Origin: a virus
Reading direction: 5' to 3' (one strand)
DNA: 64,000 bases
Virus record (IMG/VR): IMGVR_UViG_3300028615_000023
Coordinates: 1-64,000 of that record
Positions within the stretch are counted from its first letter, which is position 1. Every line of letters begins with the position of its first letter. Both the position numbers and the translations under genes were made by a program. This document shows, piece by piece, positions 2,551-31,902 of this stretch. A model generated the notes under the pieces. The model ran no database searches. It was given only the letters and a program-made list of their open reading frames with translations, and was not told the origin of the DNA.

Positions 2551-5361
2551 CTAAGACGCATCGGCATAATACTCCGGTGGCTGTTCGAAATCCTTAGTTA
2601 AGAACTTATATAATGCCTTTGGCCGCTTCATATACTTCTTAACAAAGTCATCATCAACTTCTATGTTACTGCCCATATGCCTACCTATCTTTCCTTCAAC
2701 CTCGAACTTAATAACACGCAAGCTCTTAGTTGTTATAGACTCCATGATATTCTTTACCTTCACATAGAATTCCATAGCTTGTTCAACCGGCACTTCGTAA
2801 GACAATGAGTCATGCACCTCCTGTATTATCTTGACTTGTTTATATTCACTCTTAATAAGTTCATACGTTCGACGTGCAGCAAGATAAGTAACATCTGAAG
2901 CAGTTCCCTGGATAGGAGTATTTCTAGCTTGTCGCAATGCATGAGATTGTATCTTCCTATCACTAGAGTATACGTCTTCTAAGTAACGCCTACGACCGAA
3001 ATCAGTTTCAGCGTAACCGTTATCCTCTGCGAACTCCTCAAACGTATCGAACATATTTTCGAGTCCAGTGAACTGACTTAGTATTTCATCCATGCATCGG
3101 GCCGACTCATCAAAAGGTATCTCAGCTTCCTTTGATATCTTATCAGGACCGCCACCGAATAAGATAACCCACCAAACAGTCTTAGCAATCGAACGATACT
3201 CTTTATACTTCTTATACAATTTATTAAGCTTCGGGTCCTTATCTCTCTCTTCCTTACTACTTTTGTAAACATTCATCATCTGATCATAAGGAATGCTGTA
3301 AGCTATGCATGCCGCATAACAGTGAATATCCTTACCATCACGAATGATCTCTAATAACAATCTATCGCCGGACTTAATTGCAGCTATCCTAACTTCCAGG
3401 TTCCTATAGTCAAACATCAAAAGCACATTACCGTCTTCTGCTTTTACCATGCGCTTAATAATAGGAACACGCGCCCAATTCTGAGGATTAGGGTCGTTAC
3501 CTGCACGTCTAAATGTTTCAGTTCCATTCAATAAATAAGTTGAATGGATACGACCATCCAGCCCGATGTACTTTTGCGCACCTCTAGCATATCGAGATAG
3601 ATAGGTTGAATCCTTTTTGAAAGATTGCAATCTCTTAACAAAATCCCTCTGCTTATCTGTTAGTGGAGCATAAGAAACTAAACCACTGAGAAAGTCAGAG
3701 TTAGTAGTTAAGTTTCCTTTGTCTGTTGTGAACTCGATTGAAGTTAAAAACGTCGGCCATTTAAGTCTTCGAGAAACACCATGAACATCAGCATATCTAT
3801 TGAATGGATATCTCTTACGCTCTCTTGCTGGATCAAAGTCAATAAGCATGCGTAAAGCGTTACCAGCTTGAGGTGCAGAATTAAAATTAACTACTCCAGT
3901 CTTCTTACTAGCTACTGCCTCCTTAATATGTTTAGGTAACAGCTTGCTTAATTCCTTCGAACCTTCCTCCATTCTCCGTTCATAATACTTAACAAGACTT
4001 TTTCTATACTCCTCATCAACCGCATAGCCATTGGATTCCATCTCACAATAGGGATAGACACCGGGCATAACGTGTTTACCAAAGAACTTAAATAGCTTTC
4101 GCTCCTGAAGTGTAGGCTTAAGTTTAAAGAACGTTCGATATGTACATACAGAATCAGCAGCACCATAACGACCCACTACATCAAGATCAATCTTAGTATA
4201 ATCTCTGTTCTTCGGCTCTATACCTCGCTCATTAAACCACTTCTCTAGCTGAAGTTCATAACCTCCCATGTTTACGAGCCATGCCAAATGCTTAAGAGAA
4301 TGAATCCCCTTAGCACTATCAATATTATGAGACATAAGCATCGTATCAGCATAGGGATTTAATAACTCAACACCTAGAACGCCAACAAACCAGTTACGTT
4401 CAAACTGAAAATGATGTGATATCTTCCTAAGCTTAATTTTTGCAAACCATCTTAAGAAGTCTATAACCTCGGCATACGTGTCTGGATCATCCTCCCATAC
4501 TTGCGGGTCTTGATGATCTACCGGAAGGTAAACACCATAATCGTTACTCCACGAAAAAGAAATCCCACCTATTAACGGAGGAACTTCTTTCATCTTCTGA
4601 GGTATCTGAGCTTTATCACTGCTAGGGTCGGAGTTAGTTTCAAAGTCGTGAGCTATATGAGTATCTGAAGGAAGGGATTGAATTGTCTTTTTAAGTTTTA
4701 GGAATTGCTTTCGAGTCTTAATAACTTCTAATTCTATGTCTGCAAGCGGATCAACATTAGTATTTTCGTTCTTTATGAATTCACCAAAGTTAAGAAACGC
4801 TTGCTCTATGCGCTTCATAGCTTCGGGCTGTCTTAGTCCGTAGGCTGGATGGATAATAGGCATATAAAACCTGCCATCTCTTTGAATGATGCTACCGTTA
4901 TCCTTTGTTATGCTAGCACCTCTACCGATAACAGATTTCTCAGCAGGACCACCAAACAGCACAACATATTTAGGATTAACTGCTTCGATTTCCTCATCTA
5001 AATAAGGCTTACACGTCTTAACTTCTGCGTCTGTTATCTTACCATCATACCCCTTAAAGCATTTTGTCGCATTAGTAATATATACGTCCTTACGTTCTAT
5101 TCCTATCTTATCTAGAAGCTTCTGAACTACTTTACCGGAAGGCGCATTAGGGTTGAACAGTATTCCAGTTTGATCTTCAATATCTCCAGGTCCTTCACCT
5201 ATGATCATTAACCTAGGTTTATACGGACCCCTCCCCCATATTGGCCGTTGCGCTGTCTTATGTAACGGACATAACGTACAGTTCTTAACAACGTTGATAC
5301 CTTCCGGCCTTATCCTTTTCTTTCTAAGTGCTTCTCTTGTTTCCCTGAATTGTGATTTCAT
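2551..5361 (-). CDS. DNA polymerase I family replicative polymerase with N-terminal uracil-DNA glycosylase
   Basis: A 936-aa fusion. Residues 1 to about 195 look like an iron-sulphur family 4/5 uracil-DNA glycosylase: C28, C31, C101 and C117 fit cluster ligands, with motifs GEGPGD (55-60) and HPAY (171-174). Residues from about 230 form a 3'-5' exonuclease with DFE (D239, E241), a HHFQFERN motif and the YxxxD-type motif GRYGAADS. The C-terminal half is a family A polymerase: motif A DYRNLEVR near 650, motif B KTVWWVILFGGG near 727 and motif C EVHDS near 850, where the usual VHDE has Ser instead of Glu. It should copy phage DNA with proofreading; the glycosylase may remove uracil as synthesis proceeds. 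It is almost certainly the replicative polymerase, as no other is present. Confidence 0.93.
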   Translation of the reverse strand: MKSQFRETREALRKKRIRPEGINVVKNCTLCPLHKTAQRPIWGRGPYKPRLMIIGEGPGDIEDQTGILFNPNAPSGKVVQKLLDKIGIERKDVYITNATKCFKGYDGKITDAEVKTCKPYLDEEIEAVNPKYVVLFGGPAEKSVIGRGASITKDNGSIIQRDGRFYMPIIHPAYGLRQPEAMKRIEQAFLNFGEFIKNENTNVDPLADIELEVIKTRKQFLKLKKTIQSLPSDTHIAHDFETNSDPSSDKAQIPQKMKEVPPLIGGISFSWSNDYGVYLPVDHQDPQVWEDDPDTYAEVIDFLRWFAKIKLRKISHHFQFERNWFVGVLGVELLNPYADTMLMSHNIDSAKGIHSLKHLAWLVNMGGYELQLEKWFNERGIEPKNRDYTKIDLDVVGRYGAADSVCTYRTFFKLKPTLQERKLFKFFGKHVMPGVYPYCEMESNGYAVDEEYRKSLVKYYERRMEEGSKELSKLLPKHIKEAVASKKTGVVNFNSAPQAGNALRMLIDFDPARERKRYPFNRYADVHGVSRRLKWPTFLTSIEFTTDKGNLTTNSDFLSGLVSYAPLTDKQRDFVKRLQSFKKDSTYLSRYARGAQKYIGLDGRIHSTYLLNGTETFRRAGNDPNPQNWARVPIIKRMVKAEDGNVLLMFDYRNLEVRIAAIKSGDRLLLEIIRDGKDIHCYAACIAYSIPYDQMMNVYKSSKEERDKDPKLNKLYKKYKEYRSIAKTVWWVILFGGGPDKISKEAEIPFDESARCMDEILSQFTGLENMFDTFEEFAEDNGYAETDFGRRRYLEDVYSSDRKIQSHALRQARNTPIQGTASDVTYLAARRTYELIKSEYKQVKIIQEVHDSLSYEVPVEQAMEFYVKVKNIMESITTKSLRVIKFEVEGKIGRHMGSNIEVDDDFVKKYMKRPKALYKFLTKDFEQPPEYYADAS

Positions 5362-29194: not shown

Positions 29195-29311
29195 CTACTT
29201 AACTAGTTTCAACCGTCCCTTGCATCGGCATACGATACGAGACAGAAGCACGTTCTTAGGAATACGCTTCTGTTTATTACACCTCACACACTCAACGAGC
29301 TTGGTCTTCAT
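29195..29311 (-). CDS. 38-aa zinc-ribbon protein
   Basis: Starts MKTKLVECVRCNKQKRIP behind GGAGGAAGACAT. CVRC and CRCK pairs form a minimal metal site; the rest is basic. Similar in style to the 36- and 48-aa ribbons near 2.1 and 9.5 kb. Confidence 0.65.
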   Translation of the reverse strand: MKTKLVECVRCNKQKRIPKNVLLSRIVCRCKGRLKLVK

Positions 29312-29334
29312 ATGTCTTCCTCCTTATCGGTTTG

Positions 29335-29652
29335 TTACCTTGTGTAGATACCGTGGCGTCTCCGATAATCGTAAAGCCGAAAAGTGTATTCAGCATCACA
29401 CACACTCGAATGATTCTTAGTTCTGCATCTACAATTCCTAGGAAGCTCCGGATCAGGTCTCTCCTTAGCAAGGTTATACCTTGCAGAATTCGTACTTGCC
29501 GGAAGCTTAGTATAGGTCCTGTTTCCGCATTCCCTATACCTATGGCTTCGACCATTCTTCACTTCAAGCACGTGATCACACCTAAACTTGCGTCCCGCTT
29601 CAATCACTGTAGCATGATCACACTTATTACAAACTACGTTCAACAGTTTCAT
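29335..29652 (-). CDS. 105-aa Cys-rich protein, first gene after the long leader
   Basis: Start at 29652 (MKLLNVVCNKCDHATVI) after GTGGAGGTTACT. CNKCDH and FRCDH near the N-terminus, and later ECGN and CRCRTKNH, suggest two metal sites. First gene downstream of the promoter at 30569-30597, so probably among the earliest expressed; it could regulate the region. That is inference from position. Confidence 0.6.
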   Translation of the reverse strand: MKLLNVVCNKCDHATVIEAGRKFRCDHVLEVKNGRSHRYRECGNRTYTKLPASTNSARYNLAKERPDPELPRNCRCRTKNHSSVCDAEYTFRLYDYRRRHGIYTR

Positions 29653-30562
29653 AGTAACCTCCACTTTATTAGTTAACATTCCACACACTGAGACTAACTA
29701 GGTTGTCTCAATTAGGAGCACTAGCGTCCGCCCATTAGGGTTTGCCTAACTAGTGCTCCACGTTCAAACAACCTTGCCGTTGTTATGATTTTTTACACTT
29801 CATAATCGCTCGACTATTTTCGCTGGTCTAAGATCGCTGCACCTAGTTAATAATGCTGTCACCTATTACTAACTAGGCGTCGATGCGCCATGGTTACTTA
29901 TGAACTCTCGAACTCATGCAAGAGTCTGAGTCTAACAACATGAGTTTTACTGATTACTGTTTGCGCCGTTCGTCTGGATAGCTAAGTCCAACCAACGGCT
30001 AGTTAACTATTAGACTCCCTGGGGTCCGCGTGTTAACTTGCTTACGTCCATCGCCTAACAGCATCATTAGAGAGTAACTCACGTTCACCATGTTTTATCG
30101 TTTGAATATCCAGCCCATCTTAATTCTGCGTTCGCAGAACGCCCGATAGAATTTTTTGTTAACTAATAAATAGGCTATCAACTCTATGCTTATTAGTTAA
30201 CGCGACTCCCTAGGTTCGCATGAAAAACGCTATCAAGGTTTGGCTAGTGGATTGATTATGAAGTAGCCCGTTTTGTTGATGGTGGCAAATCCATCGAAGC
30301 TCCGGACAGTCTTCTTAGTAGCGCGATTCGCACGGCTACAATTTGCGTCGGTCGGCTTTCCTTCCACGTACTAGCCTTTATACCTGCGCCTTTTTTCGTT
30401 CGAGGTGGCTCGGTTCCGTTTCCTCGCACTGGCCACAGACAGTTCGCTTTCCATTGAAGATGGCCATCTTCAACCCGTCTCGCGCCAGTGATTCAATTTT
30501 GAAAGAGCAATCGGCTATGGGCTCCCTGGGTCCCTGTGCCGCGACAGTCAAACTGTCAATGT
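29653..30562 (-). ncRNA. Candidate structured leader RNA, about 900 bases without genes
   Basis: Between a strong promoter and the first gene there is no convincing open frame. Inverted repeats on this segment: 29715-29724/29750-29759 (10 bp), 29911-29918/29939-29946 (8 bp), 29965-29970/29994-29999 plus an inner 4-bp arm, 30124-30139 (6 to 7 bp), 30158-30168/30191-30201 (11 bp), and a perfect 20-bp palindrome at 30454-30473. A degenerate repeat of the form ACTCCCTGGGGTCCGCG occurs near 30013, 30205 and 30521. I found no tRNA cloverleaf. It may be a regulatory RNA, a long attenuated leader or an uncharacterised ncRNA. A variant of the start-associated repeat lies at 30141-30163. Confidence 0.45.
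30543..30557. promoter_or_regulatory. Operator-like dyad just downstream of the promoter
   Basis: Perfect inverted repeat GACAGTcaaACTGTC, placed at about +5 to +19 relative to the predicted transcription start near 30562. Such a position suits a repressor site. Confidence 0.5.
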
Positions 30563-30568
30563 TCCTGT

Positions 30569-30597
30569 AGTATGCCAGTATCAGGACTATGTGTCAA
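30569..30597 (-). promoter_or_regulatory. Strong extended -10 sigma-70 promoter
   Basis: Minus strand TTGACA (30597-30592), 17-base spacer ending TGG, and CATACT (30574-30569), giving TGgCATACT. A perfect -35 box with optimal spacing. Probably the main early promoter for the small-gene region. Confidence 0.75.
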
Positions 30598-30755
30598 CGG
30601 AGAAAAAGAAAAAATCGACCAATAGCCAACTTTATAAGTACTTGAATTTATTGACTTTTTTCGGTTGACGTGAAAAAAACGACTGTTGAAAGCGTTTTGT
30701 ATATGCAATTGCATATACAATCGAATACGAATCGAGATGGCTCTAGAGAGCAGGG

Positions 30756-30772
30756 ACAGACATTTGTATGGT
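30756..30772. repeat. 17-mer direct repeat, copy 1
   Basis: ACAGACATTTGTATGGT, matching 30842-30858 at 16 of 17 positions. The copies are 86 bp apart and interleave with the palindromes, as iterons do. Confidence 0.6.
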
Positions 30773-30841
30773 ATGGAGATAGCAGTACATTGCATATGCA
30801 ATGTATATGGAATGTACTTAATATGTAAGTGGAAGGTTTAA

Positions 30842-30858
30842 ACAGACGTTTGTATGGT
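30842..30858. repeat. 17-mer direct repeat, copy 2
   Basis: ACAGACGTTTGTATGGT, same orientation as copy 1. Confidence 0.6.
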
Positions 30859-30882
30859 TAGATGTTGCATATGCAATGCATA

Positions 30883-31902
30883 TTACATGTAGTGTATATG
30901 TAGGTCAGACAATTTCCCGTTACGGATTGTAAAGTAATCGGCTGGATCGGTCTTAATAGGTAACTGTAAAACTCGAACACGTCTTACGGTCCATAGTTTT
31001 GATTTAATAATAGAGGCTAGCTTCTTTGCATCCTTAATAGCATCATAGTCTAGCAACACGTCAATGTATCTTACATTCTTCTCTGCAAGTTTAGCAATCT
31101 GTTCATCTGATATAGTCTTACCTAACAACGCTATACCATTAAGCTTAGAACATAGAACATCGAAGACGCCTTCCATAATAACTAATGGTGTATCCTTTCG
31201 CTCACATATATTATCATAGTTGAATATTACGTTTCGCATATCTGTCCCACACTCTTCTTCAGTAGGATTTATATACTTATTATCTTCCTCACTAGCAAAC
31301 AAAACTCTCCTGCCTTGCCAAGCAACACATTGACCATTCATGAATATCGGAAAGATAGCGCATCCTTCATACTTACCTTTAGTTGCAAAACCTATTCTAT
31401 ACTTTCTAATTTGTTTAGGATGCACAAGTCTAGTAAGTACTATATAACGTCTGATAGCTATACCTATACGTGAATTGCTAAAATCAATACGATACCCCTC
31501 AATTCTATCTAATTGTTCCTCAAGATCCATAAATCTAGGAATGGACGGAGGAGTTTTGTTAATTCTAAGAAGCTTGTTCTTCATATCTGATAGTGAAGGA
31601 GCTACAGTATACTGATCAATCAACGTCTCATTAGTAAACTGTGGAACAAGGTCAGGTATTTCCAATTGAGTTAGTAACTTCTCTATGGGATTACGTTTCT
31701 CTTTCTTTGATCCAGCTATATTACATCTAAAACATTTCCAACTATCCTTAGATGGCCGAAAGTACAGTGTCTCTCTTACTTTCTTATGTATGCGCGTACA
31801 CTTCGGACAAACAAAGCTAACTTCTCCATTATGTTGTTCTGTAAACTTGATGCCACGGTGCCTAGCTACGTTCAGTAGATTATTAACTAAGTATGTATTC
31901 AC
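30883..31902 (-). CDS. DNA primase (CHC2 zinc finger plus Toprim)
   Basis: 339 aa. The zinc-binding domain has C32, C35, C57 and C60 (VCPKC and KCFRC). A linker follows, then a Toprim domain with VIMEGVFDVLCS near 240 and LDYDAIKDAKK near 290, supplying the acidic metal-binding residues. It makes RNA primers for lagging-strand synthesis and would work with the DnaB-type helicase encoded immediately upstream (no intergenic bases). Size fits stand-alone phage primases rather than the bacterial DnaG, which has an extra C-terminal domain. Confidence 0.9.
   Translation of the reverse strand: MNTYLVNNLLNVARHRGIKFTEQHNGEVSFVCPKCTRIHKKVRETLYFRPSKDSWKCFRCNIAGSKKEKRNPIEKLLTQLEIPDLVPQFTNETLIDQYTVAPSLSDMKNKLLRINKTPPSIPRFMDLEEQLDRIEGYRIDFSNSRIGIAIRRYIVLTRLVHPKQIRKYRIGFATKGKYEGCAIFPIFMNGQCVAWQGRRVLFASEEDNKYINPTEEECGTDMRNVIFNYDNICERKDTPLVIMEGVFDVLCSKLNGIALLGKTISDEQIAKLAEKNVRYIDVLLDYDAIKDAKKLASIIKSKLWTVRRVRVLQLPIKTDPADYFTIRNGKLSDLHIHYM

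Follow-up and report, generated by a model that had tools for sequence, protein, structure and literature searches.

Long phage RNAs such as GOLLD, ROOL, the ICP1 RNA and the long non-coding RNAs of phage K can rank among the most abundant RNAs of infected cells, and their function is not known. In phage ICP1 the most abundant RNA is a non-coding transcript of ~800 nt that originates from a space of ~1 kb without open reading frames (ORFs) between gp139 and gp140 (PMC7567579). For phage K, a member of the Herelleviridae, the two long non-coding RNAs lnc001 and lnc002 were described, of which lnc001 possesses its own early promoter (PMC9241854). GOLLD forms an oligomer through intermolecular contacts, and copies of ROOL contact each other by kissing loops (PMC12286853). 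The putRNA of phage HK022 is an example of a leader RNA with an action on RNA polymerase (PMC9378689). A further candidate in a phage with unrelated DNA, which has a clear promoter and an operator-like array, would widen this kind of RNA. Its position directly ahead of an operon of small genes would make it an added case in which a leader function becomes testable.

The DNA analysed here, called the window in the following, covers 64,000 of the 64,553 bases of an IMG/VR virus record. The phage is unclassified, and nearly all genes of the window lie on the minus strand. Read from right to left, head and tail genes are followed by a helicase, a DnaB-like helicase, a primase (30883-31902, minus strand, stop codon at 30883), a gene-free segment, small genes and a DNA polymerase (2551-5361). 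The ORF-free gap behind the primase extends over 1194 bp (29689-30882) and is the largest of the window, the runner-up measuring 340 bp. Coding potential was scored by codon usage, trained on 55 long minus-strand ORFs of the window for which the 5th percentile was 0.12 per codon. No coding signal was found in the gap, where all minus-strand ORFs of at least 25 codons scored at most about 0.01 per codon. The claim of a first-pass annotation that the interval 29653-30562 lacks a credible gene is thus borne out. A plus-strand ORF of 52 codons (30670-30828) scored 0.12; it lies outside the structured part of the gap and overlaps the palindrome cluster described below. The gap consists of two unlike parts: a right part (30563-30882), which is rich in pyrimidines on the minus strand, and a left, structured segment (30562-29690) with a GC content of 46% compared to about 39% for the contig. 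The GC skew, about -0.2 across nearly all of the window, was near zero at 30001-31000, as expected for a region that lacks the minus-strand coding bias.

When both strands of the window were scanned for sigma-70-type promoters, the best consensus match was an extended -10 promoter, TTGACA-17-CATACT with a TG before the -10 element, on the minus strand at 30597-30569. It is directed into the structured segment, such that its earlier designation as the strongest promoter holds. The candidate RNA would be encoded by the minus strand from about 30562 to 29665, which corrects the earlier annotation; its start is taken from the promoter position, and 29665 is a nominal 3' limit only. The promoter had also been paired with an operator-like dyad (30558-30542), but this dyad belongs to the predicted transcript, of which it would be the 5'-most hairpin. 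Further upstream of the promoter, outside the interval 29653-30562, there are repeated operator-like palindromes. Allowing for at most one mismatch, the palindrome TTGCATATGCAA occurs 4 times in the window (0.21 expected), and all matches belong to one cluster at about 30697-30876/30905 that is built from two ~80-bp repeat units with the 17-mer ACAGACRTTTGTATGGT in common. Situated between the stop codon of the primase and the RNA promoter, the cluster constitutes a putative operator or replication iteron array. Rfam matches of the microRNA type on the cluster had scores far under the gathering scores and were dismissed as chance.

The structured segment contained 17 perfect hairpins with 6-bp arms in 873 nt. 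This is about three times the density of shuffled sequences (mean 5.7), of which none out of 300 reached 17, in agreement with its earlier description as hairpin-rich. The corresponding hairpin numbers for 70 windows elsewhere on the contig were a mean of 8.5 and a maximum of 16. A perfect 20-bp palindrome and an 11-bp dyad that had been reported before were located at 30454-30473 and 29715-29725/29749-29759, respectively. The minus-strand fold of the segment was 38.9 kcal/mol below that of the shuffles, with z-scores of -4.7 to -5.5; of the 19 minus-strand windows analysed, none had a larger excess. Other minus-strand (coding) windows of this phage also surpassed their shuffles, several with z-scores of -4 to -4.8. 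Since the coding strands fold better than shuffled sequences as well, the z-score alone is not decisive, and the segment stands out in folding energy without this being proof by itself. In 200-nt windows the segment had only a moderate folding advantage over the rest of the window, such that the folding signal resides mainly in the whole 0.87 kb. Structure above that of shuffles was also found for the plus strand (z about -3), though the minus strand folds better. The same script applied to phage RNAs that have been seen by RNA-seq provided z-scores of -5.7 for phage K lnc002, -3.3 for the ICP1 RNA and -2.2 for phage K lnc001. The z-score of -5.5 of the segment is comparable to or beyond these values.

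The predicted fold of the candidate RNA (29665-30562, minus strand) comprises the following parts, given from the 5' to the 3' end with pairing probabilities p. The promoter-adjoining dyad would form the 5' hairpin (30558-30542, p 0.73), followed by hairpin A with the apical element ACCCAGGGAG (30541-30512) and by three stacked helices of 7, 6 and 9 bp (30490-30427, p 0.95-0.98) that include the 20-bp palindrome. A multibranched domain (30392-30224) is closed by helices with p of 0.55-0.88. Hairpin B (30219-30202), which carries ACCTAGGGAG and a GCGA/UCGC stem, is predicted to compete with a long-range pairing to 29914-29921. Both repeats and the predicted fold support a 19-bp hairpin GUUAACUAAUAA.../...UUAUUAGUUAAC (30201-30158), behind which a local hairpin GUUCUGC-GAAC-GCAGAAU (30140-30123, p 0.92) is found. 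A second multibranched domain (30085-29937, p 0.72-0.97) includes hairpin C with CCCCAGGGAG (30038-30001) as well as a hairpin at 29999-29965. Towards the 3' end follow a 16-bp hairpin (29879-29840, p 0.94) and, again supported by repeats and predicted fold, a long hairpin of 24 bp (13 + 11 bp, 29777-29697) that lacks a subsequent U-run and is a possible RNase III processing site. Helices with pairing probabilities above 0.9 are spread along the length of the RNA, namely at 30490-30427, 30201-30158, 30140-30123, 30038-30001, 29999-29965 and 29879-29840 and in the core of 29777-29697. An 11-nt long-range complementarity (30264-30254 with 29807-29797) would, if formed, constitute a pseudoknot with the predicted fold.

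Hairpins A, B and C relate to a repeat that had been noted earlier. The element CTCCCTGGGGTCC is present in triplicate, at 30013, 30204 and 30520, and these are the only occurrences of CCYAGGGAG in the window. Its core is self-complementary, and each copy can form a hairpin, while the paired flanks differ (GGG/CCC, GCGA/UCGC and GGA/UCU). The three copies are thus real, but the triple is weak as evidence on its own: triples of similar quality were seen in about 3% of the shuffles, a proportion that was 8% for triples with flanking 3-bp stems, such that it remains a lead.

The first small gene (29335-29652, minus strand) has a GTGGAGG Shine-Dalgarno sequence at 29664-29658. It encodes a protein of 105 aa with cysteine pairs like those of a zinc ribbon, for which no family match was found. 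The second small gene (about 29196-29312) likewise appears by eye to encode a cysteine-rich, zinc-ribbon-like protein. On the minus strand no terminator-like site was found between the structured segment and the genes, and the transcript should therefore run into the 105-aa gene. Directly upstream of the Shine-Dalgarno sequence lies UGUUAACUAAUAAA (29678-29665, minus strand), whose 14 nt can pair perfectly with the 3' arm (30170-30157) of the 19-bp hairpin; a 14-nt match was obtained in 2 out of 400 shuffles. The same 12-mer, GTTAACTAATAA, is found at both competing positions, i.e. in the 5' arm of the hairpin (30201-30190) and in 29678-29665, such that the 3' arm can pair with only one of its two identical partners at a time. 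Mutually exclusive pairing with two identical partners is a layout known from RNA switches.

These features could also be explained by a purely cis-acting long 5' leader of the early operon, which would work as a structural switch or by put-like antitermination and would have no separate life as an RNA. The mutually exclusive states, the shared 12-mer and the uninterrupted path from RNA to gene argue for such a leader. So does the fact that the unit opens a long series of small genes on the minus strand, and HK022 putRNA, also a phage leader RNA that follows an early promoter, provides a precedent for action on RNA polymerase. However, HK022 putRNA as well as put-like and riboswitch leaders in general are far shorter than 0.9 kb, and the action on RNA polymerase is a property of putRNA. 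Moreover, the alternative pairing lies beside the Shine-Dalgarno sequence and not over it, and the 14-nt match was found after the fact. We consider a leader without further function to be possible but rather unlikely.

Comparison with known RNA families was carried out using Rfam covariance models. Within the window cmscan provided no match at gathering score, and in the region of interest only noise was seen at E-values up to 10. ARAGORN found neither tRNA nor tmRNA genes in the window, in agreement with the Rfam result; the exclusion of known RNAs that the first-pass annotation had proposed was thereby accomplished. The models of GOLLD and ROOL gave no match at gathering score or at E-values up to 10, and a GOLLD-like setting near tRNA genes is absent from the window, which holds no tRNA. 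No match was obtained either with the Rfam covariance models of OLE, raiA, HEARO, 6S, RNase P and group I and II introns. From the CsrB and RsmY models only a chance-level RsmY match resulted (10.9 bits compared to a gathering score of 57, E-value 9.5). CsrA sponges of this type carry many ANGGA motifs in hairpin loops; here A.GGA occurs 9 times compared to 4.5 expected, a count that 9 out of 300 shuffles reached. With the motif count only mildly raised and no model match, we set a CsrA sponge aside. The ICP1 RNA and phage K lnc001 and lnc002, which are known from RNA-seq, also matched no Rfam family, such that a missing match is no argument against an RNA.

The locus has the features by which long phage non-coding RNAs are described, namely a long region without ORFs, a promoter and above-chance structure; this is a description and not a homology family. 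The candidate resembles the ICP1 RNA in being a phage RNA of about 0.8-0.9 kb in an ORF-less space, with neither nearby tRNAs nor an Rfam family. In contrast to our predicted RNA, the ICP1 RNA has been shown by RNA-seq; it also lacks CCYAGGGAG and has a different gene neighbourhood. The phage K RNAs are likewise long and non-coding and have no Rfam family, with lnc001 being located behind its own early promoter, but they adjoin tRNA genes and lack CCYAGGGAG. With GOLLD the candidate shares a length above 800 nt and an elaborate structure, and with ROOL (about 0.66 kb) the occurrence in phages or prophages. It differs from both by the missing model match and the absence of tRNAs from the window, and kissing contacts as in ROOL are only suggested here.

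We favour a long structured non-coding RNA of ~0.9 kb that heads the transcript of the small genes and is possibly cut free from it, with a probability of roughly 60%. A long structured RNA at the head of the operon explains the promoter, the missing coding signal, the strand, the fold and the position. The earlier proposal of a long structured or regulatory non-coding RNA thus gains partial support, namely from non-coding statistics, hairpin excess, fold z-score, promoter and position. Against this interpretation stand the single sequence, the folding of coding strands, the structure of the plus strand and the lack of both an own terminator and a tRNA island. The best reading is an RNA of the same kind as the ICP1 RNA, the phage K RNAs, GOLLD and ROOL that is not a member of GOLLD or ROOL.

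For transcription, timing, processing and a structural or regulatory role we infer the following course. Early in infection an RNA of ~0.9 kb would be transcribed leftward from the promoter at 30597-30569, which is probably controlled by a protein bound to the palindrome cluster. Given that no terminator follows, the RNA would constitute the 5' portion of the transcript that covers the early small genes. Cleavage at the long 3' hairpin (29777-29697) would probably separate it from the mRNA, and the released RNA would persist, folded in several domains. By analogy to GOLLD and ROOL, RNA-RNA contacts could be established through the three self-complementary CCYAGGG elements, such that the RNA would serve as a scaffold; this molecular job is the weakest step. 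An improbable extension would be a new class of large ornate phage RNAs unrelated to GOLLD, ROOL and OLE, which self-assembles via the three CCYAGGG hairpins and the palindromic hairpin at 30454-30473 and switches the early operon via the duplicated GUUAACUAAUAA strand.

Alternatively, the segment may act as DNA, i.e. as replication origin, partition site or operator region whose dyads bind protein. The TTGCATATGCAA palindromes, confined to their cluster of ~80-bp units and adjoining the primase and the DnaB-like helicase, as well as an A+T-rich stretch (30600-30760) point in this direction. The palindrome repeats, however, lie outside the structured 0.87 kb, where the stems differ in sequence yet pair, as in RNA, and where folding is more favourable for the minus than for the plus strand. 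Furthermore, the window contains no DnaA box. For the segment we regard a DNA site as decidedly improbable, while the palindrome cluster, outside the interval 29653-30562, may have a partition or origin role. A packaging site, also suggested earlier, finds no support from a location in the middle of the contig between primase and small genes, with head and packaging genes 20-30 kb away. In favour of a decayed gene or mobile element, left over without function, one could invoke a size that is unusual in a compact phage and the lack of relatives. Yet compared to shuffles the segment shows a higher, not a lower, degree of order in hairpin count and fold, no intron or retroelement of Rfam matched, and the strong promoter ahead of the segment is intact, which makes decay highly improbable.

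The structured-RNA reading rests on one sequence, since searches for relatives found none. When the region was compared to phages and plasmids by blastn, the only match was a 32-nt chance match in the primase gene of a Klebsiella phage. Close protein relatives were found neither for primase, DnaB and PolA in the viral contigs of IMG/VR nor for DnaB and PolA in the genome contigs of GTDB, and a pattern scan for the DnaB Walker motif gave no match. The DnaB alignment scan of IMG/VR returned at least 80 loci, all with at most 30% identity among the matches listed; a few of the listed loci share the arrangement helicase-DnaB-primase-PolA, and the candidate RNA is absent there. DNA-pattern matches to pairs of CCYAGGGAG or to the palindrome unit were rejected as chance, as they came from unrelated phages with no third copy and no protein or DNA similarity. 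The replication proteins share about 24-29% identity with their counterparts in Herelleviridae and other phages, and several other proteins of the phage had no match at all. Neither homologous DNA nor a close protein relative turned up in the collections searched, which makes this phage an orphan. An unrelated viral contig that encodes a DnaB-like helicase contains a 776-bp stretch free of ORFs of 60 aa, which is a possible site of a long RNA.
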